Program-made: the position numbers and the translations under genes
In this document: positions 4,885-48,319 of the stretch, in pieces
How the letters are laid out: every line of letters starts with the position of its first letter
Position numbering within the stretch: the stretch's first letter is position 1
DNA from: Clostridiaceae bacterium AM27-36LB
Lineage (GTDB): Bacteria > Bacillota > Clostridia > Lachnospirales > Lachnospiraceae
NCBI GenBank assembly: GCA_003480725.1
Contig: QUJQ01000005.1
Span: 205,172-269,171 of the forward strand
Direction of reading: 5' to 3'
DNA: 64,000 nucleotides
Notes under the pieces: generated by a model
What the model saw: the letters and a program-made list of their open reading frames with translations, nothing else
What the model was told of the DNA's origin: nothing
The model's database searches: none

Positions 4885-4898
4885 GCAGTCATATCTGT

Positions 4899-6031: not shown

Positions 6032-6054
6032 AATCAAAATTTCTAAATAAAGAA

Positions 6055-6083
6055 GGCACTGTACCACCAAATGGTACAGTGCC
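6055..6083. terminator. hairpin between trxA and the reductase-like gene
   Basis: A perfect 12-base inverted repeat, GGCACTGTACCA with TGGTACAGTGCC, lies between convergent genes. The T-tracts are weak on the plus side and better on the minus side. Confidence 0.7.
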
Positions 6084-6100
6084 CCATTTATATTTATCTA

Positions 6101-6895: not shown

Positions 6896-6922
6896 TTATA
6901 TCCCTTTCCCAGAATTACTGTT

Positions 6923-8170: not shown

Positions 8171-8238
8171 CTGTATATTCCTTCAAAAGTTGTTTCAACC
8201 TTCGTCAAACCGTCCTCTGTCGTATAATTTATCCTACC

Positions 8239-8388
8239 TTATTTTTCTTTGTTCATAAATTCATTTTCTCCCGTAAAATCAGGTTCCTTTAATTCGTTAT
8301 TTTTCTTCATCTGATCATAATACGCTTTATATCTATAAATCGTCCGCTCGCTGACATCATTACGCTTTGCAATCTCCACCATAGTCAT
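8239..8388 (-). CDS. small helix-turn-helix fragment
   Basis: This is a 49-residue frame that reads MTMVEIAKRNDVSERTIYRY followed by a charged tail. That looks like the DNA-binding helix-turn-helix found at the C-terminus of resolvases or in transposase helpers. No ribosome site precedes the ATG, and the frame may extend further upstream without a start. It lies just behind the RhuM gene on the same strand. I read it as a remnant rather than a complete gene, but a short functional protein cannot be excluded. Confidence 0.35.
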   Translation of the reverse strand: MTMVEIAKRNDVSERTIYRYKAYYDQMKKNNELKEPDFTGENEFMNKEK

Positions 8389-8426
8389 ACTGCTCTCATA
8401 AGCTGAAAATTTTAATGGCGATGCTG

Positions 8427-9473: not shown

Positions 9474-9548
9474 ATGAAACGCCTCCTTTATACCTCAAAA
9501 TGCGTTTTCGCTATTGTGTTTAGCTGTTCAGCTATTTCCGCAAACGTT

Positions 9549-9767
9549 TTATTCAAGCTGATGCATTTTCATCGAATGCCAAGGCTCCCATTCAACTAAC
9601 GTATAATGAGCTGGCATGAAATCCAATGAACGAACTTCCTTTCGTATGCGCCCCAGCTGAGCTGCGGCTGTCTCCGAAACAAGAAGTTCATTCGCAATAT
9701 ACGAATAGATTTCACGTAAATCACCAAGTGCATCTACAGAATAGCCGACATTGTAGCTATCCGTCAT
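9549..9767 (-). pseudogene. relE: RelE/ParE-type toxin, C-terminus missing
   Basis: The 72-residue frame has the beginning and middle of a RelE-superfamily mRNA interferase, including the helical YSVDALGDLREIYSYIANEL part and EWEPWHSMKM. It then stops at MHQLE. Family members normally continue about 25-30 residues through the FYGGRD-type strand that carries catalytic residues, and this is absent. The ATG overlaps the stop of the antitoxin gene by four bases (ATGA), the usual coupling in such pairs. Behind the stop, another open stretch (9488-9547, ending THFEV) reads like the tail of a different protein, so a deletion junction is likely. Confidence 0.75.
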
Positions 9768-10069
9768 ATGCCAAACTCCTTTGCCAGTACCGCGTCGACT
9801 TCATCTGCAGAATATACCTTTCCTGCTTTGATGGAATCAACACCCTTCTGGAGTTCTGCATCAAGTTCTTCTCTGGTCATTGCACCAACAGCTAATGGCT
9901 TAGAAGAAGGAAGTTTCAATTCAAACGGCATACCTTTTTTCAGTACGATCTGGCTATAAAACATCTGAATTGCACTGGATGGAGAAATGCCAAGCTGAGA
10001 AAGAATGCTCTCGGCATTATCCTTGAGATTAGTATCTATTCTTGCATAAACAGCGGATGTATTTGCCAT
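9764..10069 (-). CDS. relB: RelB/DinJ family antitoxin
   Basis: The 101-residue protein has the ribbon-helix-helix start typical of RelB/DinJ (TSAVYARIDTNLKDNAESIL, then LGISPSSAIQMFYSQI). A C-terminal toxin-binding tail follows. Such antitoxins bind their promoter and neutralise the partner toxin. The ATG at 10069 lies behind AAAGGAGG; a longer frame to 10129 has no ribosome site. The stop overlaps the toxin start. Because the toxin looks truncated, this antitoxin is probably an orphan. Confidence 0.85.
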   Translation of the reverse strand: MANTSAVYARIDTNLKDNAESILSQLGISPSSAIQMFYSQIVLKKGMPFELKLPSSKPLAVGAMTREELDAELQKGVDSIKAGKVYSADEVDAVLAKEFGI

Positions 10070-10189
10070 AGTATCGCCTCCTTTTTCTTTATTACATTTA
10101 TTTTTGCTTGCAATTGCAAGCATTTGCATAAATTATTTTGTGACGAAACTTTGAATTTAATACGCCTCTTAAGGCAGAAAGGAATATTT

Positions 10190-10459
10190 ATGGGATTTTT
10201 ATCGGGTCTATTTCATTCCAGAGACAAGCCCACCAACAGTACCAATGGCAGTGCCTATCGCTTTCTCTTCGGTGGAAGCAACTCTGGCAAAGCCGTCAAC
10301 GAACGAAGTGCCATGCAGATGACTGCAGTCTACGCCTGTGTCAGAATTCTTTCGGAGTCCATTACAGGACTGCCGGTCCATATTTATAAGTATACTGACT
10401 CGGGTAGTAAAGAAAAGGCAATCAAGCATGTTGGACATAAACAAACTATATTGGCATAA
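10190..10459 (+). pseudogene. phage portal protein N-terminal fragment
   Basis: The first about 80 residues match the N-terminus of HK97-type phage portal proteins, including GFLSGLFHSRD and the block RSAMQMTAVYACVRILSESI. Portal proteins normally have about 400 residues. The similarity ends near base 10430, and the last codons (GHKQTILA) come from the opposite strand of an HNH nuclease fragment. AGAAAGGA precedes the ATG at 10190. This is a prophage remnant cut by a rearrangement. Confidence 0.8.
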
Positions 10460-10682
10460 ATGTCAAAACTACTTTTAAATCTATCCTGACATTTCATCGG
10501 CAAGGCATGATGACCTTCCATTAGGGCATTCCTGTGCTTTTAGCAGTAAATGTTACATGTGTTGGATTTACTTCACATTCATATCCTGCTGATTCTATGG
10601 ACTGCATTTTAATTGTTGATGATTTCTTCCATTTATCCACTATAAGAAGTTGCTTGTTTGTAGCTGGAATTTCAATATCCAT
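10430..10682 (-). pseudogene. HNH endonuclease fragment with frameshift
   Basis: A 53-codon frame (10521-10682) reads a zinc-binding lead-in, AGYECEVNPTHVTF, and stops after KSTGMP. Shifting by one base continues the protein as MEGHHALPMKCQDRFK and then ANIVCLCPTC. This is the core and second cysteine pair of a common HNH domain. One base appears to be missing at the CCCTAATGG site. The frame is then cut off at the junction with the portal fragment. It lies 80 bases behind the SLATT gene on the same strand. Whether it once belonged to the CBASS operon is open. Confidence 0.7.
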
Positions 10683-10763
10683 AACCCCTATTTGTTAATG
10701 AATATTTTCAAATCCTTTACCATTAGCATAATTTATCTTTATAGACTTCTAAGGCAACTAAAA

Positions 10764-11321
10764 TCATTGGCGCAAATGCTGTGGTAAAATATTAACCAAC
10801 TCCTCTTCATGAAAGAATTGTTCCTCTTCCTTTTGTAAAGCTTGCTGCGCTGCCGCGTAACTTCTTTTATCCGTTTGAATTGCATTCTCATATACTTTGG
10901 CAGTCCGATCCTTAAGCAGTTCCCTTTTTTCCATTATTTCGTTCTCAGATAATGCGTCAAAGTCTGTTAATGCGGAAATATAATCTTCCTTTATTGACCA
11001 TAGGCTATTAGCAACATCAATGTGTTTCTGTTCTTCTGCTGCAAAGTCTTTACTTTTTAAATAACCATTCACAACAAGCAACGCCGTAGATACAATTCCC
11101 CCGACCCAGGCGACTTTTGCCTCATCCATAATGACAGTTGCCACAAATCCCCCTGTTGATATGGCAGACAAAATGATTTGTACCCATTTAAATCTGTTGC
11201 AATCTCTCTGTAGAAATCCTGCATTTTTAAGATGTGCCGTATATGTATAAACTACTTTTCCATATTGTTCCTTAAGTTGCTGATAAAGTTTTTCCTTATG
11301 CGTTTGGAAATCTTGAACCAT
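10764..11321 (-). CDS. SLATT domain membrane effector (CBASS-like)
   Basis: This 185-residue protein has a coiled N-terminus, two adjacent membrane helices (around IILSAISTGGFVATVIM and WVGGIVSTALLVVNGYL) and a long charged C-terminal helix. That is the architecture of SLATT proteins, two-helix membrane effectors found with nucleotide-signalling systems. In this setting the expected role is membrane disruption after second-messenger sensing. I chose the ATG at 11321 because GGAGGG precedes it. It overlaps the 3' end of the CD-NTase gene by 26 bases, so translation is coupled. A longer frame to 11372 lacks a ribosome site. Confidence 0.8.
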   Translation of the reverse strand: MVQDFQTHKEKLYQQLKEQYGKVVYTYTAHLKNAGFLQRDCNRFKWVQIILSAISTGGFVATVIMDEAKVAWVGGIVSTALLVVNGYLKSKDFAAEEQKHIDVANSLWSIKEDYISALTDFDALSENEIMEKRELLKDRTAKVYENAIQTDKRSYAAAQQALQKEEEQFFHEEELVNILPQHLRQ

Positions 11322-12186
11322 ATATTTCCCTCCATTCATTATGCCAGCAGAAACTGAAACCTTTTTCACCATCTTCTATCGCTTCACATGCTTTATCATA
11401 AGCAAATTTAGCATCATCTTTTATATAATATTTGCGCTCTACTGTTCCTGTCCCCCCTGGCTTATCCCAATATCTTTTATCTGAATTATCATACACATAT
11501 TTGAAAAAATCTCTAGAAATCCAATCATAATAAATAAACGGCTCTTTTGCATATTGATATGAAAGCATAAAATTATAAGCCATGGAATCAATCAAAATTC
11601 CACTCATTAGAACCGTCTTGTTTTCTTTCCATGCTCTGGCCATTCTACATAATTTTTTCAAATTTTTATTGGTTTCATTATTTCTATAGTTAAATACTCC
11701 AATTTCCATTCCTGGATCCATGCTTTTCCAGAATCCTCCGTTATTGGTATCCGGGTAACAAAATCCTGCTCCATCAGAATATCTGAATGCCGGAACTACT
11801 TCAAACTTAATTCCATCTGAAAACATAATATCAACCACTTGTCCATCTGCACTAACTTTTGATGAACTATAAGTTTTTAATAAGCTATTTCTCAATGTTG
11901 CAAGAAGAGAGGATTGTCCATTATATAAATAATTGTCATATCTTTCATATTCTGTCCATGGAATTTCCACTACTATATCAATATCACTAGTGTAAATACT
12001 GGTTCCCCGTCCGTACGAACCTACATACCAGCTGTGGGAAACAATTGAATCACTATTCCAAAAGTCCTGATTAATCCTTTTAGTAATCATATGATATCTA
12101 TTACGCACATTTGATACTGTATTATCTGACATTCTAAGTGAATTACAAAACTTCTGAAAATCTGCAGAGATATTAATTTCGCTCAA
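11296..12186 (-). CDS. SMODS/CD-NTase family nucleotidyltransferase
   Basis: This 296-residue protein carries the polymerase-beta-type nucleotidyltransferase signature GSYGRGTS followed by SDIDIVVEIP (residues about 52-76), and a later acidic position in KFEVVPAF. This pattern marks the cGAS/DncV-like nucleotidyltransferases of CBASS, which make cyclic di- or trinucleotides upon phage infection. The partner effector gene overlaps its end. No E1/E2-JAB or HORMA/TRIP13 helper genes are visible, so this would be a minimal type I CBASS. The messenger molecule cannot be read from sequence. The region is strikingly AT-rich compared with the core genes. Confidence 0.85.
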   Translation of the reverse strand: MSEINISADFQKFCNSLRMSDNTVSNVRNRYHMITKRINQDFWNSDSIVSHSWYVGSYGRGTSIYTSDIDIVVEIPWTEYERYDNYLYNGQSSLLATLRNSLLKTYSSSKVSADGQVVDIMFSDGIKFEVVPAFRYSDGAGFCYPDTNNGGFWKSMDPGMEIGVFNYRNNETNKNLKKLCRMARAWKENKTVLMSGILIDSMAYNFMLSYQYAKEPFIYYDWISRDFFKYVYDNSDKRYWDKPGGTGTVERKYYIKDDAKFAYDKACEAIEDGEKGFSFCWHNEWREIYGSRFPNA

Positions 12187-12342
12187 TAATATGTCCCTCC
12201 AAAATCAATTATATAATTCATAATATACCATATTTCAAAGCAATTTTCTACTTATGTACAACAAGCAGGTGACGTATTGTATGTAGACTTATTGTATTCT
12301 TTTTGTCATAATATAAATTAAGAATTTGTTGGAGGTTACACT

Positions 12343-12558
12343 ATGTCGTTACTACACATATTCGCTATCAATGTAAGAAAATATCGTCTACAGCAAAATC
12401 TTTCACAGGAAAAGTTAGCCGAACTCTCTGGTCTACACCGAACATATATCAGTTCCATCGAAAGAGAACAGCGAAACATATCTATAGATAATATCGCAAA
12501 AATTGCATCTGCCCTAAAAATTGATCCATACTTACTACTGAAAAAATCCATTGAATAA
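12343..12558 (+). CDS. controller (C) protein of a restriction-modification system
   Basis: This is a 71-residue Xre-type helix-turn-helix protein with the features of R-M controller proteins: NVRKYRLQQNLSQEKLAELS, then ISSIEREQRNISIDNIAKIA. The second block is almost diagnostic for C proteins, which delay endonuclease expression until the host DNA is methylated. GGAGG lies seven bases before the ATG at 12343. The endonuclease candidate begins 13 bases downstream. AT-rich sequence upstream (12187-12342) would hold the C-box and promoter, but I cannot define the operator with confidence. Confidence 0.85.
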   Translation: MSLLHIFAINVRKYRLQQNLSQEKLAELSGLHRTYISSIEREQRNISIDNIAKIASALKIDPYLLLKKSIE

Positions 12559-12571
12559 TCGGAGGAAGAAC

Positions 12572-13522
12572 ATGGCAAAAACAAAGCATCCCATACTAAA
12601 TGAATATAATTTATTAAAGGAGTCTTTTAATCAAAATCCCCTTGCATCTGCAGTTACTGATATAATAATAAACATTCACAATAAATGCCAAAATGAATTA
12701 AAATCCAAACAAAAGCATAATCTTAATCCAGGTAATGGAACTATCGGCAAAACTTACTTCTATTTTTCAGATGATAAAAAACATTCTCGTCCTGTAAATC
12801 AAGCGCTTTTTGAAGATGGTTATCAACCTGCTACTGATTTTTCTGGTAATCCAGTTAGGAATCAAGAAGACTTGACCATGACCAAAGCAGACTGGTTTTT
12901 ACATAATCTAAAAAACAATACAATTAAAAATCAGTCTGCTAATGACATAACTTCTGCATTATATACTATATCAATGGAATTTTGTTGTTCTACTGATTTA
13001 ATTGCGTCAAATTCCCAGAAAATTTGTGGTACCTATTTTGAAAAATTAATAGGTCATATCTATTCTCGGCATTTAAATGTAGCTCCAAGCAGTACGCAAT
13101 ATGCCTGTGAACTTGATTCTACCAGCATCAAGATTCCTACCGATTTTATTTTCAATCTTGGTCCTAATATGCCTAAATTTGATGTTCCTGTGAAAACTTC
13201 TACCCGTGAACGTTGTGTAGAAGTATGGGCTCAACAGCGTATCCTCGATGGTGCGTATGGTGCTGGAAGATTTTTAGGATTACTCACATGTATATCCGAG
13301 GCAAAAATGAACTCAGAAAACAAAGATCATTCCAAGTGGAAAGTAGATGATGTATGCGTTCCAAATCAATGGATTAATTATCAATTATTTATTGCACAAA
13401 TCAAGCGAGCCTATTACTTAGATGTTCCTAATCGTTATGATCAACTAAATGATTCTTTTCCACGAATCCATGTAAAAAAATTTGGTGAGTTCTTTTTTGA
13501 ATGGGAAGATTTGCTAGACTAA
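12572..13522 (+). CDS. putative type II restriction endonuclease
   Basis: I do not recognise the exact family of this 316-residue protein. The call rests on position between a C protein and an m5C methyltransferase, and on a PD-(D/E)XK-like arrangement: PTDFIFNLG, then KFDVPVKTSTRERCVE, where an acidic residue is followed by a VKT core. The ATG at 12572 follows GGAGGAAGAAC; a TTG seven codons earlier is less likely. The C protein gene and this one form one transcript, ended by the hairpin at 13524-13553. The cleavage site is unknown. Confidence 0.65.
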   Translation: MAKTKHPILNEYNLLKESFNQNPLASAVTDIIINIHNKCQNELKSKQKHNLNPGNGTIGKTYFYFSDDKKHSRPVNQALFEDGYQPATDFSGNPVRNQEDLTMTKADWFLHNLKNNTIKNQSANDITSALYTISMEFCCSTDLIASNSQKICGTYFEKLIGHIYSRHLNVAPSSTQYACELDSTSIKIPTDFIFNLGPNMPKFDVPVKTSTRERCVEVWAQQRILDGAYGAGRFLGLLTCISEAKMNSENKDHSKWKVDDVCVPNQWINYQLFIAQIKRAYYLDVPNRYDQLNDSFPRIHVKKFGEFFFEWEDLLD

Positions 13523-13523
13523 T

Positions 13524-13553
13524 TAAAAGCAGGCCTTTTTGCCTGCCTTTAAT
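13524..13553. terminator. bidirectional terminator between endonuclease and methyltransferase genes
   Basis: AAAGCAGGC and GCCTGCCTTT form a stem around a T-rich loop, flanked by A and T runs on both sides. It separates the convergent endonuclease and methyltransferase genes. Confidence 0.85.
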
Positions 13554-13558
13554 TTCCG

Positions 13559-14728
13559 TTAATTTAATAATTCTTTTATTTTGATTCCCCAAGCATATGC
13601 CAATAACGGTGGAACCGCATCACCAATCTGTTCGTATTTATCCTGTTCTTCTCTGTTATCATGTGCAGTTAAATATTTTCCACCTACGAAATCATATGAA
13701 TCTGGAAACGATTGTAAGCGGGCACATTCCCGAACTGTTAATGCCCTTGGCTGTACAGGATGAACAAATTCATCTAAGCAATGACTCGTTACTGTAGGTG
13801 AAGCCTCATCCCATTTTAAGCGGTAATTTCTTTTCACATAAATTGTTTTAGGAATAACCTTTCTTGATTGATATTCTGCCAACTCTTCTGCTGTTAATCT
13901 TTCAAACAATCCCTTTAATCCTTCGCCTTGTTGTAAAATCGTAAATCTTTCTAATATATTTTTTCTATGGTTCATTGGAAGATGATTAAGTAATTTCTTT
14001 TCTTTTGTAATTCTTTTCCAAAAAGAGTCATTTTTCATTAACCGTGTATATTCAGATTCTTCTTTCAAATAGTTCGGATTCTCTGTCCATGTATTTGCTA
14101 TAACTTCTGGTATATCAATAAATGCATCCTTCACAGTTACTTCTTTATCCGGTGTCGTCTCTACCGGAGTCTGGCTTACATCAATTTGAGAATCTTTACT
14201 TGCTAAAATAAAAAATCTTTTTCTCTTTTGAGGTACCCCATATTTGCTTGCATCCAAGACAAATTCTTTAAAGTTTCCATACCCGGCTTCTTCTAATTCC
14301 TTCTTTAAATAATCTATGACCAGTTCTTTTGAATCCTTTGCAATCCTTTTATTTTGTATATTGGGAACATTTTCAAACAGTATCATTTTTGCATTAACAA
14401 TTTGTGCGATTCTAATTCCCTCTCTAAATAGAAATTGACGATCATCATACGCAGCTCTTGATGAATTACCCGCGGTAGAAAAAGTTTCACACGGCATTCC
14501 AGACGTTACTAAATCAATTCCCTCTTTTGGAATATAAGGTAGTATCTGATCAGCAGTTACCTCTCGAATATCTGAATGAATAACATGTACCTCTGGATGA
14601 TTTGCCGAATATGTATCTACACAACTTTTTATATATTCAATCGCAACTTTTGTTTCAAATCCTGCTGCATGCAAACCAGTGCAAAAGCCACCTGGACCAC
14701 TAAAACAATCAACATGTGTATATGGCAT
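13559..14728 (-). CDS. DNA (cytosine-5) methyltransferase
   Basis: This 389-residue m5C methyltransferase has all main motifs in order: motif I DCFSGPGGFCTG (residues 7-18), motif IV SGMPCETFS with the catalytic cysteine, motif VI FENVPN, motif VIII QKRKRFF, a variable target-recognition region around 240-310, and motif X EQIGDAVPP. It protects host DNA from the linked endonuclease. AAAGGAG precedes the ATG at 14728. The small AbrB-like gene ends two bases upstream, so both share a transcript that converges on the endonuclease transcript. Confidence 0.93.
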   Translation of the reverse strand: MPYTHVDCFSGPGGFCTGLHAAGFETKVAIEYIKSCVDTYSANHPEVHVIHSDIREVTADQILPYIPKEGIDLVTSGMPCETFSTAGNSSRAAYDDRQFLFREGIRIAQIVNAKMILFENVPNIQNKRIAKDSKELVIDYLKKELEEAGYGNFKEFVLDASKYGVPQKRKRFFILASKDSQIDVSQTPVETTPDKEVTVKDAFIDIPEVIANTWTENPNYLKEESEYTRLMKNDSFWKRITKEKKLLNHLPMNHRKNILERFTILQQGEGLKGLFERLTAEELAEYQSRKVIPKTIYVKRNYRLKWDEASPTVTSHCLDEFVHPVQPRALTVRECARLQSFPDSYDFVGGKYLTAHDNREEQDKYEQIGDAVPPLLAYAWGIKIKELLN

Positions 14729-14730
14729 TG

Positions 14731-14946
14731 TTACTCTCCTTTAACCTTGTTTTTTGTTTTACTCTCTTTATTATTTTGATTATCAGAATTTCTCAAAATA
14801 ATCTCTTTTGTAATTGCATCAAAATATACATCTAATCGTGTTTCTCCTGCCTTGCCATCAATATTAACCAAAACCGATTTTGGTAACCTAATTCTCATAT
14901 CTTGTTGAAGCAAAACAGAATCTAAAAATACCAATTTTTTATCCAT
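14731..14946 (-). CDS. small AbrB/SpoVT-like protein
   Basis: This 71-residue protein reads DMRIRLPKSVLVNIDGKAGE then TRLDVYFDAITKEIILR. This beta-rich pattern resembles the swapped-hairpin AbrB DNA-binding fold. A lysine-rich, polar tail follows. GGAGAG precedes the ATG at 14946. It is the first gene of the methyltransferase transcript, so an autoregulatory role in methyltransferase dosage is plausible but not shown. Confidence 0.55.
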   Translation of the reverse strand: MDKKLVFLDSVLLQQDMRIRLPKSVLVNIDGKAGETRLDVYFDAITKEIILRNSDNQNNKESKTKNKVKGE

Positions 14947-15035
14947 GTTATCTCTCCTGATTTGTCAAATTACAGGTCTATATTAAACTATATTCATTAA
15001 AATATCAACCTAAAATCAGGTCAAATTAAGGGCAA

Positions 15036-15305
15036 CTATTTTCTCCCACCAATCTGCCACTTATCATGTCTCTTAATGCTCCGCACAGCCTGCCGCAGCA
15101 TATTACTGCGACCATGCTGATGATACGGATGGGACACCTTATGTTTATGAAATATAATACATGATCCCATCAACGGATATTTCGGATTATGTATATGCCA
15201 CATATGTCTGGTATTCCGGGACATGATGGTCACATCCCGGTCATCCATATAAATAATCTCAAAATACTCCGGAGCCAGACATTCAAGATCTTTCCTGCTA
15301 AGCAC
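15036..15305 (-). CDS. hypothetical protein behind parB remnant
   Basis: About 89 residues follow a GTG at 15305, which overlaps the last codons of the parB frame. Notable parts are YFEIIYMDDRDVTIMSRNT and a His-rich C-terminal half (HMWHIHNPKYP, IIFHKHKVSHPYHQHGRS). I do not recognise a family. A longer frame up to 15395 exists but runs through parB in another frame and is unlikely. The overlap with parB suggests that the gene travelled with the partition module. Confidence 0.55.
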   Translation of the reverse strand: MLSRKDLECLAPEYFEIIYMDDRDVTIMSRNTRHMWHIHNPKYPLMGSCIIFHKHKVSHPYHQHGRSNMLRQAVRSIKRHDKWQIGGRK

Positions 15306-15681
15306 CTGCTGCCTTCTTTCCAAAATACCCTTCCAGTGCCTTCTCCATGATCTCCTGCACTGCTCCGGCATCCATCTGCCCAAAATACCTCTCATACAAT
15401 TCCAGTGGCAACTTCACAGACACACTCTGCGGCTTCTTCTGTTCTTCCCCTGCCAGGACACACTCAATCGCCTTTTTCGTAATCTCTTTTCCCATCTTTC
15501 GCAGTTTCACTGCCTGATTCGGTTTCAGTTTCTTTCCCTCAGCCTCTGCCACCTGCTGGATCAGCTTCTGCATCTTCACATTCAGATAAAATAGATCCAC
15601 AGCAGCTACCATTGCCAGCGTCCCCTTATCCACAGCATCTTTAAACTTCGGAATCAGCCGGTCCAGCCACAGGATTTTCAA
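15298..15681 (-). pseudogene. parB: ParB C-terminal remnant
   Basis: The 127-residue frame reads like the end of a ParB/Spo0J-type partition protein of conjugative elements: the helical block LIPKFKDAVDKGTLAMVAAV, then KLKPNQAVKLRKM, and a C-terminal helical tail. The ParB box and helix-turn-helix that should make up the N-terminal half are missing. The ATG at 15681 lies inside the parA remnant rather than at a normal start. This is a truncated gene. Confidence 0.6.
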
Positions 15682-15833
15682 TTCCGAAGCAAGTTGTCAG
15701 ATTTGGCTGGCTGTCAAAATCAACAGCCAGAATCCTTTTTCCCATCTCGGTCAGTGAATAAGCCAGATTCCAGGAGCTGGCAGTTTTGCCAACTCCCCCC
15801 TTTAAATGATCCTCTCATAATAATCCTTGCCAT
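15651..15833 (-). pseudogene. parA: ParA N-terminal remnant with frameshift
   Basis: The frame opens at an ATG (15833) and reaches the Walker A lead-in GSFKGG. At a run of six Gs the frame breaks. In the next frame the sequence continues as GKTASSWNLAYSLTEMGKRI, then LAVDFDSQPNLTTCFGIEN, the unmistakable start of a ParA/MinD ATPase. It then runs straight into parB sequence, so the remaining about 200 residues of ParA and the first half of ParB have been deleted. Confidence 0.7.
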
Positions 15834-15972
15834 ACTCTCTCCCCCTCTCATGCTTTCTTTCCATAACAGCATGCACTCTGCTCTGCCACAAACCTTCATA
15901 TTTCTTACATTTTTCTTTGCCATAGAATTGACTCCTTTCAGATTTGACTAATAGATTTTCAGATTTAAAAAA

Positions 15973-39234: not shown

Positions 39235-42200
39235 TTATCGCACCTCCTCATGCTGTTTTGGTTTCTTGTCTGTACTGCGGGGCGGCACCGGGCGTTTCAG
39301 ATGATCCAGCACCGAAGGCCGTGTGCTTTTGGCAACAACAGCCTCGGCGTGTGCCTGTCCCTTTCCGTCGATGTTGAGCAAAGTATCCAGCTCCACCAGA
39401 CGGGCGTTTTTGCTTCGCAGTTCTTCTTCATAAAGGAATGGCTTTCCGACTTCCTCCTTTGCGGCAGCCTGCTGCTGATAGAGGTTATCCAGCTGGGCCT
39501 TTGCCGCCTCCAGACGCTGTGGCATCTGGGCGAGGGCATTGTCGATACGGGTAAGATTTCCGCGAGGGTCTGTACCAAGAGTTGCCCTGTGGGTCATCTG
39601 TCCTTTCAGCAGGAGCGTATACTCCTGTTTCCAAGCGGAAAATTCCACGGATATGGCATAGCCCCGGTAGCTGCCAATCTGCACCGGATCGGAGGTTTTG
39701 ACCTCCTTGCAGGCATCCAGAAGGGCTGCGCCGGCGTTCTCCTTATCGGTCAGCAGATCGCCACGAATCTCCATACCGGCAAAGCCGTCCTCTGGGTGCG
39801 GGTGAGCTGCCAAAACCTCCAGATCAGATTCAAAGCCCTTGATAAAACCTTTGTGCTTTTCAATCTCCTCCGGGAAGTATTTGAGCAGCTGGTCCTCCAG
39901 ACGATATTGCTTGCTCTGGTGGTCGGCTTTCATCAGCTTCAGGCGGGATACCTCCACATCCAAATCCATACGCTCCTTGATGCGGGGATCTCCGGCACAC
40001 AGAGCCTTGATCTCAGCAAAACTGAGGGCTGTTTCATCCACATCATCGCAGGAGCGCACCGGCGATTTAGAAGTCATGATCTGACTGATGAATTTCTGCT
40101 TGTTCTCCACTGTCTGCCAGAGGTATGCGTCAAAGGTTCCCTCGGTCACATAGCGGTACACATGAACAAGGGGGTTCTGGTTGCCCTGACGCTCGATACG
40201 CCCCTTTCTCTGGGCAAGGTCTCCGGGTCTCCACGGACAATCCAGATCATGAAGTGCCACCAGACGGTCTTGCACATTGGTGCCTGCGCCCATCTTGGCG
40301 GTGCTGCCCAAAAGGACACGCACCTGACCGGTACGGACTTTAGAGAACAGCTCCTTTTTCCGCACTTCGGTGTTGGCTTCATGGATAAAAGCGATCTGGT
40401 CGGCAGGCATTCCCTGAGCAATAAGTTTCTGACGAATATCGTCATATACCGTAAAGACCGGTTCCTGCTCCGGCAGAGTCACAGCGCCTTCCAGTGCGTG
40501 AAGCAGTGGATTATCCAGCGTTTTCGCCGCCTTGCTTGCAGGAGCTTTGGCCTGTGGTGTAGAAATGTCGCAGAACACCAGCTGGGTCAGCTTGTCAGCT
40601 TTGCCGTCCCGCCAGATCTGCATGATGTTGTCCACACACTGATTGACCTTTGTGCCAGGTTCGTCCGGCAGCATCTGGTTGACGATCCTCTGGTCAAGCC
40701 CCAGCTTACGGCCATCCGAGGTAATCTTGAGCATGTTATCCTGGGACGGGTCAACAGTTCCGCTGTGTACCAGCGATGCACGCTCCGAAAGAGCTTTGAC
40801 CATTTCCTGCTGATGTTCGGTAGGCTGCGCCACGATGTTGTGGTATTCCACCTCCGGGGTGGGCAGGTTCAGTTGGTCGGCGGTCTTGATGTCCGCCACT
40901 TCTTTGAACAGGTTCATCAGCTCTGGCAGGTTAAAGAACTTGCTGAATCTCGTTCTTGCCCGGTAGCCGGTGCCTTCCGGTGCCAGCTCCAAAGCTGTGA
41001 CGGTCTCTCCAAATCGGGAAGCCCAGCAGTCGAAGTGGGTCATGTTCAGCTCTTGCAGGCGTTCATATTGAAGATAACGCTGCATGGTGTAAAGCTCGGT
41101 CATGGAGTTGCTGACCGGTGTGCCGGTGGCAAAAATCACGCCACGATTTCCGGTGATCTCATCCATATAGCGGCACTTGGCAAACATATCGGAGGATTTC
41201 TGCGCGTCCGATGTGGAAAGACCAGCCACATTCCGCATTTTTGTGTATAGAAACAGGTTTTTATAGTTGTGGGCCTCGTCCACAAACAAACGGTCCACAC
41301 CCAGCTGCTCGAAGGTTACCACATCGTCTTTTCGCCCCTCGGCTTGCAGCTTTTCCAGTCTGGCTTCCAGAGACTTTCTGGTACGCTCCAGCTGCTTGAC
41401 GGTAAAACGCTCGCCGCCGCTGGCCTGTACCTCTGCAATCCCCTCGGTGATCTCGTCGATCTGCTCATAGAGAAGCCGTTCCTGACGCTCCCGGCTGATG
41501 GGGATACGCTCAAACTGGCTGTGTCCCATGATAATGGCATCATAATCACCCGTCGCAATACGAGCGCAGAACTTCTTTCGGTTATGGGTCTCAAAATCCT
41601 TTTTTGTGGTGACTAAGATATTGGCGGAAGGATAGAGACGCAGAAACTCCGACGCCCACTGCTCGGTCAGATGGTTTGGAACCACAAAGAGAGATTTCTG
41701 GCACAGTCCCAGGCGTTTGGCTTCCATCGAAGCAGCTACCATCTCAAAGGTTTTGCCTGCGCCTACTTCGTGTGCCAGCAGGGTATTTCCGCCATACAGC
41801 ACATGGGCGATGGCACTTTTCTGGTGTTCCCGCAGGGTAATGGCCGGGTTCATGCCGCCAAAAGTGATATGGCTGCCATCATACTCGCGGGGACGGGTAG
41901 AGTTCATTTCTTCGTTATACTGGCGCACCAAAGTCTGGCGGCGCTCCGGGTCTCTCCAGATCCAGTCCCTAAAGGCTTCCCGGATAGCCTGCTGTTTTTG
42001 AGCAGCCAGGGTGGTCTCCTTGGCGTTCAGAACCCGGCGCTCTTTTCCGTCTGCGTCCTCTATGGTGTCGTAGATACGGACATCCCGCAGGTTCAGGCTG
42101 TCCTCCAAAATCTTGTAGGCATTGGCACGGCTGGTTCCGTAGGTGGTGTAGGCTGCCACATCGTTGTAGGATACGGAAGATTTCCCCTTGATCTGCCATT

Positions 42201-45200
42201 CAGCGGTAAAGGACGAATAGTTGACCTCGATACTGCGCTGGAGATAAAACGGGGTGTTGAAGGTTTCGTACATAAACTGCTGGATGTACTCTTTGTCGAT
42301 CCAGGTAGCGCCCAGACGCACCTCGATCTCCGACGCATCCAGGTCTTTGGGCTGGGCGGCGCTAAGAGCTTCCACATTGACTGCATAAACCGGGTCCTGC
42401 TGTGCCGCCCGCTGCGCCTGACGCAGTTTGCGGCGTACATTGCCGGAAAGGTATTCATCAGCAGTCACAAAATGGGGTGTGCCGTCTTTCTCCAACTGTC
42501 CCGGTACACGGAAGATCACGCCTTGCAGCTCTCCGGCCAGTTCTTCTTTTGTTTTTCCGGTAAGCTGGCTCATATAGCTCATATCTACGCAGGCTTTTTC
42601 CGAGATGGACACCGCCAGTGCTTCGCTTGCCGTATCCACAGTAGCCACTGCCTGATGGGGCTTGATGGTCCGTTTGGTGAACATATCCGCCTTGCGCTCC
42701 AGCTTTCCGTCCTCGTCGATAACTTCCAGCGCACAGAGCAGGTAATAGGAAGAATCATCTGCATAGGCCAGCCGGTTCGCACGGTCGTTGATGAGACCGT
42801 ATTTGGCAGAAAAGCTGTCATAGAGTCGGTTCAGTTCCGCCTGTTTTTGGGTAATGGTGCTGTCTGGAACCGCTGCATCCATCTGAAGGTCGATCAGTTC
42901 CTGCACACAATCACGCAGTCCCACAAGACCTTTCACGCGGGCTTCGACGGTGGCGTTGAGGTCAGGGCGCACCATGCGGCTGTTTTCCCGATAGTACACC
43001 TGCCCGTCTACAATGGCATAGGAATAGTTCTTCACATTTGGGTCGGCAGGAATGGAGGTGTCAATGGCTTCGCCTTCGCCCAGCTCCGGCAGCTCTGCCT
43101 CCTGATAAGTGCCATGAATGTACTTCACAGCATCATGCAGCTGGTCGGAAAGCTTCAGTCCCTCGATGGGGTTCACGGTGTAGTCCATACCATGTGCAGT
43201 GCTTACCGGCTCCTGTCTGCCCAGCACCATTTCCGGGTGGTCGATAAAATACCGGTTGATGGCAAACCCGTCCTCCGTCTGTCCGGTCTGCGTCCACTCT
43301 GATGCAATGTCCAGCGGACGGTCCCGCTTTTGGAGAAAGATGATGTCCGATACAACCTCGGCACCGGCATTCTTTTTGAACGCGTCATTAGGCAGACGGA
43401 TCGCTCCCAGCAGCTCGGCACGCTGGGCAAGATAGCGGCGCACGGTGGAATCCTTGGCATCCATGGTATAGCGGGAGGTCACAAAAGCTACCACACCGCC
43501 GGGACGCACCTGATCCAGTGCTTTGGCGAAAAAGTAATTATGAATGTTGAAATTCAGCTTGTTGTAGGCTTTGTCATTGACCTGATACTGACCAAAAGGC
43601 ACATTGCCGATGGCAAGGTCAAAGAAGTCCCGCCTGTCAGTGGTCTCAAAGCCGCCTACTGTGATGTCCGCCTTGGGATAGAGCTGCTTTGCGATACGCC
43701 CGGAAACCGGGTCCAACTCCACGCCGTACAGATGGCTGTTTCGCATTTTCTCCGGCAGCATACCAAAGAAATTGCCCACACCCATAGACGGCTCCAGAAT
43801 ATTTCCTGTCTCAAATCCCATACGGTCCACCGCTTCGTAGATGGCCTGAATGACCGTAGGGCTGGTGTAATGGGCGTTGAGGGTAGAGCTTCTGGCGGCG
43901 GCATATTCCTCCGGGGTCAGCAGTTCTTTTAGCTGGGCATACTCTAAAGCCCATACCGGTTTCTCCGGGTCAAACGCATCAGAGAGACCGCCCCAGCCCA
44001 CATAACGGGAAAGAATCTCCTGTTGTTCGGGGCTTGCCTGCTGTCCGGCAGATTCCAGCTCTTTCAGCAAACGAATGGCATTAACATTTGCCTGGAACTT
44101 GGCTTTTGGACCGCCTTCACCCAAATACTCATCGGTAATGCGGAAGTTCTGTGCATTGCGGCGCAGGTTAGCCTTGTATTCCTCATAGGAGGCTTCCTCG
44201 GCAGCTTTGGCATTGGGGAAGGTCTGCCACTGGCCGTTGACCTGAATGGAAACCGGGTGTTCATCCAGCACTTCCTCAAAGGTTTTCTCCGGCTCTGTTA
44301 CAGGGGCTGGCGGCTCCGGCTCCTCAATATGCAACCGTTCCACCACCACATCATAAGGTAGATGGTTCTTATCGCCCGGATAGACGGCCATGGTCTCGGA
44401 ATGGAAGGTCGGGGATTCGGTAGCCGATTGGGGCTGTTCCTGTCCAAAGCCGTCCTGCTGACGGGCATACATCCCGCGCAGCAAAGGCGCAACCTCATCC
44501 CAGCGGAAATACAGCATAGCCAGACGCTTTTCCTCTGCATCCATGACTTCCAGTTCTATGCCCTGTGCCGTGGTACGGTAATCGACAATATCGCCGGTCT
44601 CCAAATTCAGCGTCTCGATCTCACCGGAATAGGCTCTGCTCAGCCAGTAGGCGATCTCGCTGTTGCTCCTGCCGGATTGCAGCAGCGTGGAAATCTGCTT
44701 TTTATCCGCTTCATCCATCAGTCCATGAGCCAATACATCCCGCAAGTCCTGATCTGCCTTGTCCGGGTCAATAGGAAGAAACTCGGTATAGTAAGCATTT
44801 CGGCGATCTGCCCGAAGCAGCTGTTCAAACTGTTCTTTGCGCTCTGCCCGGTAGATGGGATATACCATGCCGGTGGGCAGAAGCTGTACGGTGTCATCCC
44901 GTAGCTCGGTGATCTGATAGGCGTCATCCTCGATATACACGGTATCGCCCACGGCATAGACCGGGGCGGCTGGGTCATAGGAGGTTCTTTGCGGAATTGG
45001 GCGGCGAACTGCGTCATATTCCTCATCGGAAATAGCAACTTTGGAAGTCTGCTCTGTCTCAACAGCTGCGATCTGCTCTACATCCGACATTACCTGCTGG
45101 ATAAATGAGTCATTGTCCAGTTTTTCCGGGTCTGCCACCTGGCCGTTGACGATCCCTCTTTCCTCCAGAGCTTCCCGGATGGCGATGGGGTCGATGTTGT

Positions 45201-48024
45201 CAAAACGGTCCTGTTCTTCTTCGGTATAGAACCGGTCCTCCTGAATGAGCTGGGCAAGCCTGCGCTGTACCTTCGGCCAGGGCAGCTGCGTTTCCTCCGG
45301 GCTGCCGGCACGGACAACGAACAGGCTGTTGCTGTTACTGCCGCCGTATTCCTGAGCCAGCCATGCAGCGGTATCTTTCTCTCTTGCATGGTCTTTCATA
45401 TAACGGACGACAGCGTGTTTACTCTCGATATTGCCGTTCCATGCACAAATGGCAGTATCAATATCTTCCTGAGAAAGAGGGCGCAGAAGTTCATGGAGCT
45501 TTGGATAGGTTTCGTCGATCACTTCCCGGTGCAGGCGCTGGCGGAACTCCGGCACATCCGAATAGAGGCGGATCAGCTCCATATCCTTAGAACCAAGGAC
45601 CGCACGGCGCACAGCGGCATTGCCCTCGATGACAGCATTTTCACGGTCAGAATGCCCGCAGGCATTGCGGTATGCGGCATCCTCGGAAATGGCGGCAGTC
45701 ACCACAGTCTTATACTGCTCAAACTGCTCCCGAAGGGTAGGCTTTGGCGTTTCTTCCTCCACCTCCGGCTGCTGGGCTTGGATGGCATCTTCTTCTGCCA
45801 ATTCCTTTTCAGCCTGGATTTTGTCATACTGCGCCTGTTCCTGTTCGGTAAGATAGCGGCCTTTCTGGACAAGTGAGGTAATGCGCTTGGCAACCTTTTC
45901 CCAGTTCAAGTGAACATCCGGGCAGTCCTGCTTTTTATAGTGCAGTCCTTTCCCATCGTGATCTTCGCCGCTGTGTGTTGCGCCGGACAGGGCATGAGAG
46001 CGTCCGCCAATGCCATACTCGTCTTTGAGGAATCTCACTTTCTCCTTATCCGTATGGTTTGCCATGAAGAACGCATAGATACGGCCTTTTCCTCCGGCGA
46101 AACTGCTGCCGCCGGTCATGGCGGCGTCGATCTCATCCTCGGTAATGAAGTGCTGGACGGTTGGCACTTGGGAAAGCTCTGAAGAAAAGGTCCTGCGGGG
46201 CAGGTCAAGGTCCTTCAGGTTCTCCCAGATCTCCCTCGGTCTATGATAGTGAAAACGCAACAGGTCACGGTCCTGCTGATAGGCAGTCCAGAAGGCAGCG
46301 TATTCTTCCTTGAGGGTTTGGCGGAAAGCTGGGTCACTCAGCTGCTCGGCAAGCCATGCAGTTTCTTCCGGGAACCCGGTTCTCTGAATACCGGACAGAC
46401 AGGACAGATACCCGGAATCTCTGGCTTTATCGCTGAAATCGTGGTACAGATGCCAAAGTTTTTCTGCAAGGAGGGAGCGTTCATAGCCTGCCGCTTCTGC
46501 AAGCTCCACATTAGAGGCAAACTGACCACTTTCCAAAAGCTCCCCGATACGCTCTGCGGCGCGCTCCCAAGAAATGATCTGGGCAGACCTGTCATAACGG
46601 ACAGACTTCCCGTGGGAAAGATGGATACCATCCTCGGCATACCATGCGCTCACACTGCCAAGACCGTTGCCGCCGTGGTACAGCGTTTTCAGTATCTCGG
46701 CAATCTCAGCGGTGGTTTTCTGCTTTTCAAATGCTGCAACCACACGCTCCCTCTGACGATCTGTATTGCCGCCCAAACGCAGCACATGGTCGATGTCATT
46801 TTGGGCAAAAGAAAAAGCAGAGGATGTATGCGCTACATTCTCTGCTTCATCTATGGATTGGATCTGTTCCGCTTCGGAGAGGAACAGGTTTAGGGTCAGC
46901 TGTTGATAAGCTCCGCCATCAGGATCTCCTCTGCCTGGGCTTTGCAGGTGTTCATCAGCCCCACCCACTTCATGGGATCGCTGGCTTTCAGTTGCTCGGT
47001 GGCTCCCGCTTCCTTCGCCAGCTGGGGCATCATCTGCTCCAGTCTGCTCTGGGCGGTCTCGTCGATCTCCAGAAGGTGCTGGTACAACTTCTCGCTCAGC
47101 AGCATCTGGTTGTAGAGGATGGGACGATGTTCCTTCAGGTAGGTTTTCCTCATCCTGCCGTACTTGCCCAGGGTTTTCTCTGACTGCTGGCTCAGCTTCA
47201 GGTCGGGAATCAGATAGTCTCCGTTCTGGATATAGGTCATGGGATTGTTCATCTTGCTTGCTCCTTTCTTGGTTGGCTTCGCGCTCTGCATTTCGGACGG
47301 TGACGCCGATCTGCCGCAGCACCTGCTGGTTGATCTGACTGACCGCTGTTCCCAGCGCCCCGATGGTGGACGGGGTGTTGAAATCAAAGATCGCCATGAA
47401 ATCTTCGTGGTCGAAGTAACGTTCCGGCTCCAGTCCACAGCGGGACATCAAAGCGTAAGTGATACTGACGGTGGCGGCTGCCTTGAACTGCACTCCGATG
47501 TTAAACTCATCATATTCCTCCAAAAAGGAACCGTCAACGATATAGAAGAAGTCCTGCTGATGCTCCGTCCAGTATTCCTCAGCCAGTTTTCCGGCTACCT
47601 TGGTGAGCTGTCCGGCAAGGTCATCACCGGAAACATCATAGGTGCGCTCAAGCATGGCCTGCACCGAATCCAAATGGCGCTCCTCCAGCTGCCACAGCCA
47701 GGGAGTGCGGGAATGTTCACGGGTTCCGGTGTCGGAAATATCAAAGACATAACGCAGGCGGGGCCTGTCCCCGGAATCGTCCACCAGAGCGATTCCCTTG
47801 GAACCGCGCCTTACATAACGGCCCATCTTTTCATTCCACAAATCGTACTCCGCACAGGCGGTGGCGTCCGGTCGCTGGGCGTAGATCATCAGTTGTTCAT
47901 GGAACGGGTACTTGTAAAGGCGGGAAGCAGTAGTGAGAAACCCTGCCCATTCCTGCCAGCTCCCCGTGAGCTGTGTTGCCACCTTGTCCGCCATCTGTGC
48001 ATATAGTTCAGCTTTGGTTGGCAT
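39235..48024 (-). CDS. giant N6-methylase/SNF2 helicase of the conjugative element (LtrC-like)
   Basis: About 2,929 residues. The N-terminal about 250 residues are an ArdC/LtrC-like part. Residues about 258-376 are a polar linker that overlaps the tnpV gene. Repeated modules follow between about 430 and 1190. The N6-methylase part lies near 1400 (ILEPSMGVGNFFGML, then AIGNVPFGQY in place of NPPY). The SNF2 helicase part has Walker A in HEVGAGKTFEM near 2090, FVDEAHNYKN near 2250, and motif VI in LAQRKGRIERQGNQN near 2600. Such proteins may protect or remodel incoming DNA. The ATG at 48024 follows AGGAGG. The whole frame is intact, with no stops, in spite of the nested gene. Confidence 0.9.
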   Translation of the reverse strand: MPTKAELYAQMADKVATQLTGSWQEWAGFLTTASRLYKYPFHEQLMIYAQRPDATACAEYDLWNEKMGRYVRRGSKGIALVDDSGDRPRLRYVFDISDTGTREHSRTPWLWQLEERHLDSVQAMLERTYDVSGDDLAGQLTKVAGKLAEEYWTEHQQDFFYIVDGSFLEEYDEFNIGVQFKAAATVSITYALMSRCGLEPERYFDHEDFMAIFDFNTPSTIGALGTAVSQINQQVLRQIGVTVRNAEREANQERSKQDEQSHDLYPERRLSDSRPEAEPAVRENPGQVRQDEENLPEGTSSHPLQPDAAEREVVPAPSGDRRDRPEQTGADDAPAGEGSGSHRATESQRSHEVGGADEHLQSPGRGDPDGGAYQQLTLNLFLSEAEQIQSIDEAENVAHTSSAFSFAQNDIDHVLRLGGNTDRQRERVVAAFEKQKTTAEIAEILKTLYHGGNGLGSVSAWYAEDGIHLSHGKSVRYDRSAQIISWERAAERIGELLESGQFASNVELAEAAGYERSLLAEKLWHLYHDFSDKARDSGYLSCLSGIQRTGFPEETAWLAEQLSDPAFRQTLKEEYAAFWTAYQQDRDLLRFHYHRPREIWENLKDLDLPRRTFSSELSQVPTVQHFITEDEIDAAMTGGSSFAGGKGRIYAFFMANHTDKEKVRFLKDEYGIGGRSHALSGATHSGEDHDGKGLHYKKQDCPDVHLNWEKVAKRITSLVQKGRYLTEQEQAQYDKIQAEKELAEEDAIQAQQPEVEEETPKPTLREQFEQYKTVVTAAISEDAAYRNACGHSDRENAVIEGNAAVRRAVLGSKDMELIRLYSDVPEFRQRLHREVIDETYPKLHELLRPLSQEDIDTAICAWNGNIESKHAVVRYMKDHAREKDTAAWLAQEYGGSNSNSLFVVRAGSPEETQLPWPKVQRRLAQLIQEDRFYTEEEQDRFDNIDPIAIREALEERGIVNGQVADPEKLDNDSFIQQVMSDVEQIAAVETEQTSKVAISDEEYDAVRRPIPQRTSYDPAAPVYAVGDTVYIEDDAYQITELRDDTVQLLPTGMVYPIYRAERKEQFEQLLRADRRNAYYTEFLPIDPDKADQDLRDVLAHGLMDEADKKQISTLLQSGRSNSEIAYWLSRAYSGEIETLNLETGDIVDYRTTAQGIELEVMDAEEKRLAMLYFRWDEVAPLLRGMYARQQDGFGQEQPQSATESPTFHSETMAVYPGDKNHLPYDVVVERLHIEEPEPPAPVTEPEKTFEEVLDEHPVSIQVNGQWQTFPNAKAAEEASYEEYKANLRRNAQNFRITDEYLGEGGPKAKFQANVNAIRLLKELESAGQQASPEQQEILSRYVGWGGLSDAFDPEKPVWALEYAQLKELLTPEEYAAARSSTLNAHYTSPTVIQAIYEAVDRMGFETGNILEPSMGVGNFFGMLPEKMRNSHLYGVELDPVSGRIAKQLYPKADITVGGFETTDRRDFFDLAIGNVPFGQYQVNDKAYNKLNFNIHNYFFAKALDQVRPGGVVAFVTSRYTMDAKDSTVRRYLAQRAELLGAIRLPNDAFKKNAGAEVVSDIIFLQKRDRPLDIASEWTQTGQTEDGFAINRYFIDHPEMVLGRQEPVSTAHGMDYTVNPIEGLKLSDQLHDAVKYIHGTYQEAELPELGEGEAIDTSIPADPNVKNYSYAIVDGQVYYRENSRMVRPDLNATVEARVKGLVGLRDCVQELIDLQMDAAVPDSTITQKQAELNRLYDSFSAKYGLINDRANRLAYADDSSYYLLCALEVIDEDGKLERKADMFTKRTIKPHQAVATVDTASEALAVSISEKACVDMSYMSQLTGKTKEELAGELQGVIFRVPGQLEKDGTPHFVTADEYLSGNVRRKLRQAQRAAQQDPVYAVNVEALSAAQPKDLDASEIEVRLGATWIDKEYIQQFMYETFNTPFYLQRSIEVNYSSFTAEWQIKGKSSVSYNDVAAYTTYGTSRANAYKILEDSLNLRDVRIYDTIEDADGKERRVLNAKETTLAAQKQQAIREAFRDWIWRDPERRQTLVRQYNEEMNSTRPREYDGSHITFGGMNPAITLREHQKSAIAHVLYGGNTLLAHEVGAGKTFEMVAASMEAKRLGLCQKSLFVVPNHLTEQWASEFLRLYPSANILVTTKKDFETHNRKKFCARIATGDYDAIIMGHSQFERIPISRERQERLLYEQIDEITEGIAEVQASGGERFTVKQLERTRKSLEARLEKLQAEGRKDDVVTFEQLGVDRLFVDEAHNYKNLFLYTKMRNVAGLSTSDAQKSSDMFAKCRYMDEITGNRGVIFATGTPVSNSMTELYTMQRYLQYERLQELNMTHFDCWASRFGETVTALELAPEGTGYRARTRFSKFFNLPELMNLFKEVADIKTADQLNLPTPEVEYHNIVAQPTEHQQEMVKALSERASLVHSGTVDPSQDNMLKITSDGRKLGLDQRIVNQMLPDEPGTKVNQCVDNIMQIWRDGKADKLTQLVFCDISTPQAKAPASKAAKTLDNPLLHALEGAVTLPEQEPVFTVYDDIRQKLIAQGMPADQIAFIHEANTEVRKKELFSKVRTGQVRVLLGSTAKMGAGTNVQDRLVALHDLDCPWRPGDLAQRKGRIERQGNQNPLVHVYRYVTEGTFDAYLWQTVENKQKFISQIMTSKSPVRSCDDVDETALSFAEIKALCAGDPRIKERMDLDVEVSRLKLMKADHQSKQYRLEDQLLKYFPEEIEKHKGFIKGFESDLEVLAAHPHPEDGFAGMEIRGDLLTDKENAGAALLDACKEVKTSDPVQIGSYRGYAISVEFSAWKQEYTLLLKGQMTHRATLGTDPRGNLTRIDNALAQMPQRLEAAKAQLDNLYQQQAAAKEEVGKPFLYEEELRSKNARLVELDTLLNIDGKGQAHAEAVVAKSTRPSVLDHLKRPVPPRSTDKKPKQHEEVR
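46896..47252 (-). CDS. tnpV: TnpV-family protein, nested in another frame of the helicase gene
   Basis: This 118-residue protein looks folded and family-like: MTYIQNGDYLIPDLKLSQQ, KYGRMRKTYLKEHRPILYN, LLLSEKLYQHLLEIDETAQ and MKWVGLMNTCKAQAEEIL. These match TnpV, a small protein first seen on Tn4451-type elements, of unknown function. AAGGAG lies eight bases before the ATG at 47252. The gene is read on the same strand as the helicase but in a different frame, over its full length. The helicase frame here gives only a polar Glu/Arg/Pro/Asp-rich linker, so TnpV looks like the constrained frame. Confidence 0.75.
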   Translation of the reverse strand: MNNPMTYIQNGDYLIPDLKLSQQSEKTLGKYGRMRKTYLKEHRPILYNQMLLSEKLYQHLLEIDETAQSRLEQMMPQLAKEAGATEQLKASDPMKWVGLMNTCKAQAEEILMAELINS

Positions 48025-48062
48025 AGTGTTCTGTCCTCCTTTCAGTTTTGGGGTAAAAAGGT

Positions 48063-48083
48063 GGGGTGGCAGATCGCCACCCC
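48063..48083. repeat. hairpin between TTRAP and helicase genes
   Basis: GGGGTGGC pairs with GCCACCCC around AGATC. There is no T-run on the minus strand, so it may slow or process the long transcript rather than end it. Confidence 0.6.
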
Positions 48084-48103
48084 ATCCCTGCCGATTATGG
48101 TGT

Positions 48104-48319
48104 TTACTGGTCAAAATCCGGGTACAGCTCCAGTTCGGCAAACTTCTCATCGGTCATCGCACAGAGCTTCGTAAGGGCGCTGTCGGTCAACTCTCTCAGC
48201 TCCGTTTCCTCCGGCGAAAGCTCGCCGCGCATCTCACGCAGACTGTCAATCAGCCCGGTGCGGCTGCCGGTATTGTAAATGCACATCAGGTTCATTTCCT
48301 CAAAAGTAAAGTTTCCCAT
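48104..48319 (-). CDS. TTRAP-type putative transposon-transfer assisting protein
   Basis: The 71-residue acidic protein matches the TTRAP family of conjugative elements: NFTFEEMNLMCIYNTGSRTG, then LIDSLREMRGELSPEETELR and LTDSALTKLCAMTDEKFAEL. The function is only inferred from family context. The ATG at 48319 has GGGAG before it and lies within a few bases of the stop of the large CHC2/ArdC gene. Confidence 0.85.
   Translation of the reverse strand: MGNFTFEEMNLMCIYNTGSRTGLIDSLREMRGELSPEETELRELTDSALTKLCAMTDEKFAELELYPDFDQ

Follow-up and report, generated by a model that had tools for sequence, protein, structure and literature searches.

Evidence for a conserved tnpV gene nested within the DarB-like methylase-helicase genes of conjugative elements, plasmids, and phages

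INTRODUCTION

TnpV is described in a passage of PMC3158075 as a transposon protein, and a role in excision has been postulated there for that of Tn4451 from its similarity to lambda Xis. Small elements with their own tnpV integrate in the snf2 genes of streptococcal integrative and conjugative elements (ICEs), those of Streptococcus suis, according to passages of PMC9815147. A second family relevant here comprises DarB of phage P1 and the DarB-like proteins; parts of PMC5512222, a paper on polyvalent proteins, cover DarB together with the methylase-helicase dyad, and a DarB-like protein has been detected by proteomics in virions of phage JC1 (a passage of PMC9144972). Here, we analyze 64,000 nucleotides of DNA from Clostridiaceae bacterium AM27-36LB (contig QUJQ01000005.1, positions 205,172 to 269,171; hereafter the window), in which a complete tnpV gene lies inside a DarB-like methylase-helicase open reading frame (ORF).

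The window gene compares with these systems as follows. By profile, its product is a full-length member of the family to which the TnpV of Tn4451-type mobilizable elements belongs (PF14198), but the gene is not free-standing and is instead nested at a fixed offset in the methylase-helicase gene. The enclosing ORF shares a methylase and an SNF2-type helicase core with P1 DarB and the DarB-like polyvalent proteins as these are treated in the relevant parts of PMC5512222, whereas P1 DarB starts close to its core and lacks a nested ORF. Long same-strand overlaps in bacteria have rarely been established. Bacterial overlapping genes for which an origin by overprinting has been proposed (e.g., PMC4683798 and PMC7103648) likewise involve a long coding overlap in another frame; judged by the abstracts, these cases appear young or antisense, unlike the TnpV overlap, which is same-strand, has a fixed frame, and occurs in several phyla and in phages. 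The passages on TnpV or Tn4451 in PMC10782964, PMC11913394, PMC12323340, and PMC5704250 do not mention the overlap, and the words "TnpV" and "overlapping" occur 0 times in the text of PMC5512222. Searches of an open-access library, which lacks most subscription papers and preprints, turned up no description of the TnpV overlap.

RESULTS

A complete tnpV gene inside the methylase-helicase ORF

The features of the locus, with the basis of each where one applies, are the following (window coordinates):

39235..48150, minus strand: DarB-like methylase-helicase ORF enclosing tnpV, 2971 aa (ORF reading, Pfam, core similarity)
47269..48024, minus strand: helicase N-terminal domain (N-domain), 5' of the overlap (homologues)
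47261..47266, minus strand: AAGGAG ribosome-binding site of tnpV, eight bases from its ATG (sequence)
46896..47252, minus strand: tnpV, a complete nested coding sequence from ATG to stop, 118 aa (ORF reading, PF14198 match, low omega among relatives)
46896..47252, minus strand: polar helicase linker written by the overlapping frame, about residues 300-418 counted from the ATG at 48150
40051..43953, minus strand: methylase-helicase core, used as the query for DarB-like relatives

The tnpV gene begins one base after a helicase codon start, i.e., in the +1 frame relative to the helicase, and its product scores 148.9 bits against PF14198 (cut-off, 27), with profile positions 1-111 of 111 covered. 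An earlier note, made from the letters of this DNA, had described a 118-residue TnpV-like ORF with an AAGGAG at eight bases, and its coordinates, length, and ribosome site are right; our ORF reading also agrees with its statement that tnpV lies wholly inside the helicase gene, on the same strand and in another frame, with both frames open.

The likelier start of the helicase appears to be the ATG at 48024, ten bases after AAAGGAGG at 48042..48035. Pfam matches above cut-off in the helicase ORF are Eco57I, SNF2-rel_dom, and ResIII, and a Helicase_C match is marginally below it (23.4 vs 23.5). The fusion of an adenine methylase with an SNF2-type helicase is the mark of a DarB-like protein, and the window ORF carries it, as seen from both Pfam and core similarity: identity is 41.8% to Klebsiella phage LASTA across the whole core query and 27.2% to P1 DarB across 52% of it.

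The nested arrangement recurs at one frame offset

A total of 437 TnpV relatives were found in named genomes, and the loci of the best 80 of these 437 were analyzed. In all 80, the helicase frame is open across tnpV on the same strand and in the same frame; the spanning ORFs measure between 422 and 3175 aa, some of them truncated where a contig ends. The third frame, by contrast, is interrupted and leaves pieces of 7-34 codons at mid-gene. The tnpV gene opens with an ATG after an AAGGAG-type site in 77 of these best 80, and the three remaining starts comprise two divergent N-termini and one contig end. In addition, a Pfam search of one order found TnpV in 82/196 genomes, compared with 0/14 control genomes. 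Eighty regions from this search, counted from the list, divide into 37 nested and 43 free-standing copies; in the free-standing ones, 1 to 26 stops interrupt the helicase frame. Since both forms occur, TnpV has two modes of existence.

The search was also run from the helicase side. With the N-domain as query, 63 of 245 genomes in the class gave matches; with an N-domain alignment, 24 of 299 genomes in the phylum and 23 of 296 in a second class did. TnpV is matched in 58 of the 60 loci that were gathered through the N-domain alone, the exceptions being L261, with a junction of about 41 residues, and L280, where the contig ends. Among 179 distinct helicase relatives, a total that takes in loci found through TnpV as well, 171 carry TnpV at at least 40 bits. 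The relative frame is identical in all 171, and 169 copies lie wholly within the helicase ORF (one of the other two has a helicase-frame stop, and one meets a contig end). Loci L081-L110, L191-L220, and L281-L346 were excluded from this count as overlapping or shorter fetches, as were ORFs in which fewer than 150 N-domain positions matched; merging of identical N-domains reduced 205 helicases to 179.

The eight helicases without TnpV at 40 bits are L261, L378, L184, L377, L376, L280, and the second ORFs of L076 and L144. L377 reaches 31 bits and, by eye, holds a diverged TnpV copy, and L376 has its N-domain in another frame with TnpV further on. In L184 (longer copy, L475), the helicase ORF includes the N-domain and lacks a nested tnpV, and a free tnpV stands 12 bases upstream of this ORF, which suggests an escaped or alternative arrangement. 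The pattern that the earlier note had named beforehand as refuting it, i.e., a TnpV frame regularly broken beside a conserved linker, was not seen among the 179 helicases.

Nesting at the same offset was also found in named plasmids of Virgibacillus, Cohnella, Monoglobus, Subdoligranulum, Anaerococcus, Ruminococcus albus, Streptococcus agalactiae, three Enterococcus species, Listeria innocua, and Selenomonas, several of these TnpV matches scoring just 30 to 63 bits. The earlier note had given a Tn1549-type setting for the gene; as a limit this must be given up, since nested copies in named plasmids and in the viral DarB-like loci described below extend the arrangement far more widely. Arthrobacter, at one point taken as a case of a separate upstream tnpV, was withdrawn because its helicase ORF is open upstream across tnpV and very likely starts there.

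The overlap is accompanied by inconsistent database records (loci L452/L462, L451, L460, L465, and L449). The Cohnella RefSeq record has TnpV and an antisense hypothetical protein where the helicase start belongs, those of Monoglobus and Selenomonas keep TnpV with a late helicase start, and in that of Virgibacillus the helicase alone is annotated. The overlap accounts for these annotation errors, in which some RefSeq records retain tnpV with the helicase missing or truncated and others retain the helicase only. We also noted two 207-residue proteins (P0001 and P0002) with TnpV scores of 396-406 bits. Single copies, at about 118 residues, reach 244 at best, so the two may represent TnpV in tandem or artefacts of assembly.

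DarB-like loci of phages and plasmids carry a TnpV relative

Loci found through the core comprise 80 viral contigs (core alignment), 8 plasmid or phage loci, and 4 further ones (n = 92). Sufficient upstream sequence was present in 88, L472, L507, L508, and L560 being left out for short upstream sequence, and 82 of these were distinct after near-copies had been merged. The longest open stretch upstream of the core averages 125 codons in the TnpV offset vs 75 in the other offset, and that of the TnpV offset is the longer in 79/88 loci (74/82 distinct), AT-rich ones included. A TnpV-like profile grown from one phage ORF matches 79/88 loci, 78 of them within the helicase ORF and all at the offset seen in the helicase relatives above (distinct loci: 73/82, 72 of which lie inside). 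The distance to the core is most often about 230 to 560 bases, the match lying 5' of it. Matches are weak in L466 and L572 (E 0.007-0.01), and in the named phage BcepIL02 the nested ORF scores 20.4 bits. The profile gave no match in L467, L468, L501, L503, L506, L547, L557, L565, and L573 among the 88; a similar ORF is visible by eye in L468, L547, L557, L565, and L573, which we still count as misses. Two scans of viral contigs with TnpV-less helicases as queries retrieved no relatives. The sole match outside a helicase ORF is L469, where a split tnpV lies just downstream of the snf2 helicase gene. This layout recalls the tnpV elements of streptococcal ICE snf2 genes in the section of PMC9815147 that treats them.

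Because the profile was iterated over Bacillota loci too, homology rests on a separate, phage-only test. A profile built from phage-set ORFs alone found 38/114 TnpV sequences at E < 1e-3 and 0/15,569 reversed decoys at E < 1, and HHalign comparison of phage with TnpV profiles gave 97.1% over 47 columns (95.8% over 52 with other alignments). By these comparisons, we consider the phage nested ORFs and TnpV to be homologous. Against the Pfam TnpV cut-off, one of six phage or plasmid ORFs equals it (27.0), three fall below, and two have no match, so that the phage ORFs are best described as TnpV relatives by profile comparison and not as Pfam members. In conjugative elements, plasmids, and phages alike, the TnpV frame keeps one reading offset and lies either directly before the core or at some distance from it, with extra domains in between.

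The two frames are under unequal selection

The earlier note had proposed TnpV as the constrained frame and suggested measuring synonymous and nonsynonymous rates in both frames. We ran this test among relatives, using 134 nested copies from which greedy disjoint pairs of equal length were taken; 32 pairs differed by 1 to 8%. The ratio of nonsynonymous to synonymous rates (omega) in TnpV was 0.13 for changes silent in the helicase and 0.25 for helicase-altering changes, and the corresponding values for the linker were 0.62 and 1.17; the helicase N-domain gave 0.12 in these 32 pairs. Wider distance ranges agree (TnpV, 0.14-0.37; linker, 0.63-1.70), so TnpV is low and the linker near neutral, as proposed. 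TnpV-silent changes that create a helicase stop amounted to 0.5 at 316 sites vs about 25 expected from the rate of comparable changes, a contrast inflated by the drawing of the copies from open helicases. In ten pairs of the viral set (one window-like), omega was 0.50 for the nested frame at helicase-changing sites and 0.72 to 1.57 for the linker.

Shuffling of synonymous codons, with identical and partial domains dropped, gave 2.5 expected helicase-frame stops for 96 distinct nested tnpV genes vs 0 seen; only the expected number is informative here, because the nested class is defined by the absence of a stop. For 35 free-standing genes, 7.2 stops were present vs 8.2 expected. The selection values suggest that the nested frame holds the information and that the helicase frame mainly needs freedom from stops. 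By comparison among relatives, TnpV is under purifying selection, and the helicase frame over tnpV appears to avoid stops while its amino-acid sequence is nearly free; the linker is polar, as the earlier note had said, and almost free to change.

Translation signals and predicted structure

AGGAG, GGAGG, or AAGGA precedes one of the two ATGs nearest the domain in 123/136 Bacillota copies, compared with 161/4342 (4%) of same-frame ATG pairs elsewhere in the helicases. These motifs argue that TnpV mostly has its own ribosome-binding site. A chance ORF as the nature of tnpV is ruled out by the Pfam score, the open frames in relatives, the selection, and the ribosome sites.

The AlphaFold model of TnpV is helical, with a mean confidence (pLDDT) of 87.6 and block means of 94-98 over residues 31-118, which bears out the prediction that it looks folded; its N-terminus is a poorly defined hairpin. 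The model of a phage ORF is helical too (77). A fold search of the PDB and of viral structures returned no match at E <= 0.001, the best viral one having E 0.52 and probability 0.99, and sequence matches in the PDB were weak (the best, at E 0.027, is a designed protein).

DISCUSSION

We conclude, with a probability of roughly 0.82, that tnpV genuinely codes for a protein and is a long-standing resident of the DarB-like methylase-helicase gene, nested within it; its coding nature and conservation are well supported by the comparisons above. In the mechanism that we propose, ribosomes starting at the internal site would make TnpV from the helicase message, and others would read through in the helicase frame and so produce a flexible linker joining the N-terminal modules to the core. 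The linker would then be largely a by-product of reading through tnpV.

Several observations weigh against this interpretation or parts of it, beside the inflated contrast in stops. In the viral set, a clear ribosome site is present in just 32/65 copies (control, 97/3154), and seven more copies have no nearby ATG. L469 and L507 have no nested TnpV yet show stretches of polar or acidic character, roughly 60 to 100 residues long, unlike the short junctions elsewhere; a long linker therefore accompanies TnpV usually, not always. When codon usage is pooled, the linker frame resembles the remainder of the helicase more closely (0.46) than TnpV does (0.06), and per gene it is a tie, TnpV being higher in 33/61 genes, so that this test does not favor TnpV as ancestral. 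Finally, in Sinorhizobium phage PBC5 (L581), an N-terminal polyprotein (175-6766) lies in the TnpV frame, ends with a TnpV-like domain, and overlaps the methylase-helicase ORF, which occupies 6192-15972 in another frame. This layout may reflect a switch of frame, an arrangement of its own, or an error in the sequence, and it suggests that the frame junction may be able to switch.

The PBC5 layout speaks for a rival reading in which a frameshift after the N-terminal modules, and not internal initiation, yields TnpV at the C-terminal end of their product, and phrog_938, a family of 2185 positions, also matches the phage copies near its C-terminus. We nevertheless hold this to be quite improbable: an ATG and a ribosome site are conserved at most Bacillota copies, and among 101 profile hits in the other loci, none has the domain starting more than 150 residues into its own-frame ORF. 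That the TnpV frame is untranslated inside the helicase and stays open merely through conservation of the helicase protein is hardly credible, since the constraint is the reverse of what that predicts, ribosome sites are conserved, and free-standing TnpV homologues exist. A function in excision or integration, for which the gene's place would merely supply an operon, has in its favor the Xis similarity postulated for Tn4451, but phages and plasmids, too, have the nested form in association with the methylase-helicase, the fold search gave no match to known proteins at its threshold, and TnpX is the only transposon protein required for Tn4451/3 transposition according to a title cited in PMC5704250; this, too, seems improbable to us. 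The remaining alternative is that the linker came first and that TnpV was born within it by overprinting, later escaping to small transposons. The codon usage and the stretches of L469 and L507 favor it, as do the spread of the nested state and the scatter of free-standing copies in the trees described below, while the asymmetry of constraint and the several TnpV-less relatives that start at the core or have a short junction speak against it; on balance, we regard it as unlikely.

The tree of the cores, built by a quick method from 62 of 114 cores and rooted on P1 DarB, has TnpV-bearing loci on every main branch, and those without TnpV are scattered over it; of its 10 changes, 9 are forced by well-supported branches. 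Its TnpV label stands for a TnpV-like match anywhere on the fetched locus, so that L475 bears it though not nested; among the 12 TnpV-less rows, L501 and L508 have little pre-core sequence and L492 was not read by eye. The labels are weakly clustered (shuffles were as low in 33/500 for the TnpV label), and we read the pattern as probable repeated loss of TnpV. The tree of TnpV itself (82 of 169 nested and 32 of 35 free-standing copies, root not fixed) places free-standing genes in several places among nested ones, including one group of 20 free-standing rows, and holds 9 state changes, at least 5 of them forced. An N-domain tree, with just three TnpV-less rows on long branches, is uninformative on order. 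Because all nested copies share place and frame, we take nesting to be one old event and most free-standing copies to be escapes.

TnpV-less relatives bear on the order as well: L378 and L382 have short junctions, L503 has a short polar stretch, and P1 DarB and an Agrobacterium plasmid helicase start near the core (L467 was viewed in part only). TnpV is likely to be older than the linker. The earlier note had argued that TnpV is the older frame and that the linker was added by overprinting; the asymmetric constraint and the short junctions agree with this, and the codon usage, the loss-like scatter of TnpV-less rows in the core tree, and the stretches of L469 and L507 do not.

As to function, the guess that we favor is a role as partner of the methylase-helicase. 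That the small helical TnpV is produced alongside the enzyme as its partner or regulator, and that most free-standing tnpV genes of small transposons left the nested state, we put forward tentatively, as the weakest part of our interpretation and at less than even odds. A broader proposal strikes us as an even bet, namely that the nested gene was present before the conjugative-element branch of the DarB-like family separated from the phage branch (P1 DarB aside), that it encodes a dedicated small partner of antirestriction-type enzymes and possibly ranks, for prokaryotic mobile DNA, with the most widely conserved long overlaps on one strand, and that most tnpV genes of small transposons are escaped copies. 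Judged from sequence comparison, tnpV and the helicase form an unusually old and widely kept overlapping gene pair across several phyla. Its recurrence in a fixed frame with asymmetric selection makes it a natural, replicated system for the study of overprinting and of fusion across an intervening gene, and the nested tnpV hints at an overlooked component of DarB-like systems.

A further motif follows the linker: QLTLNLF (46882-46902, minus strand) resembles a sliding-clamp-binding motif. A clamp-type motif occurs within at most 80 residues after tnpV in 82/167 helicases (near-copies not merged), compared with 8/1670 shuffled segments.

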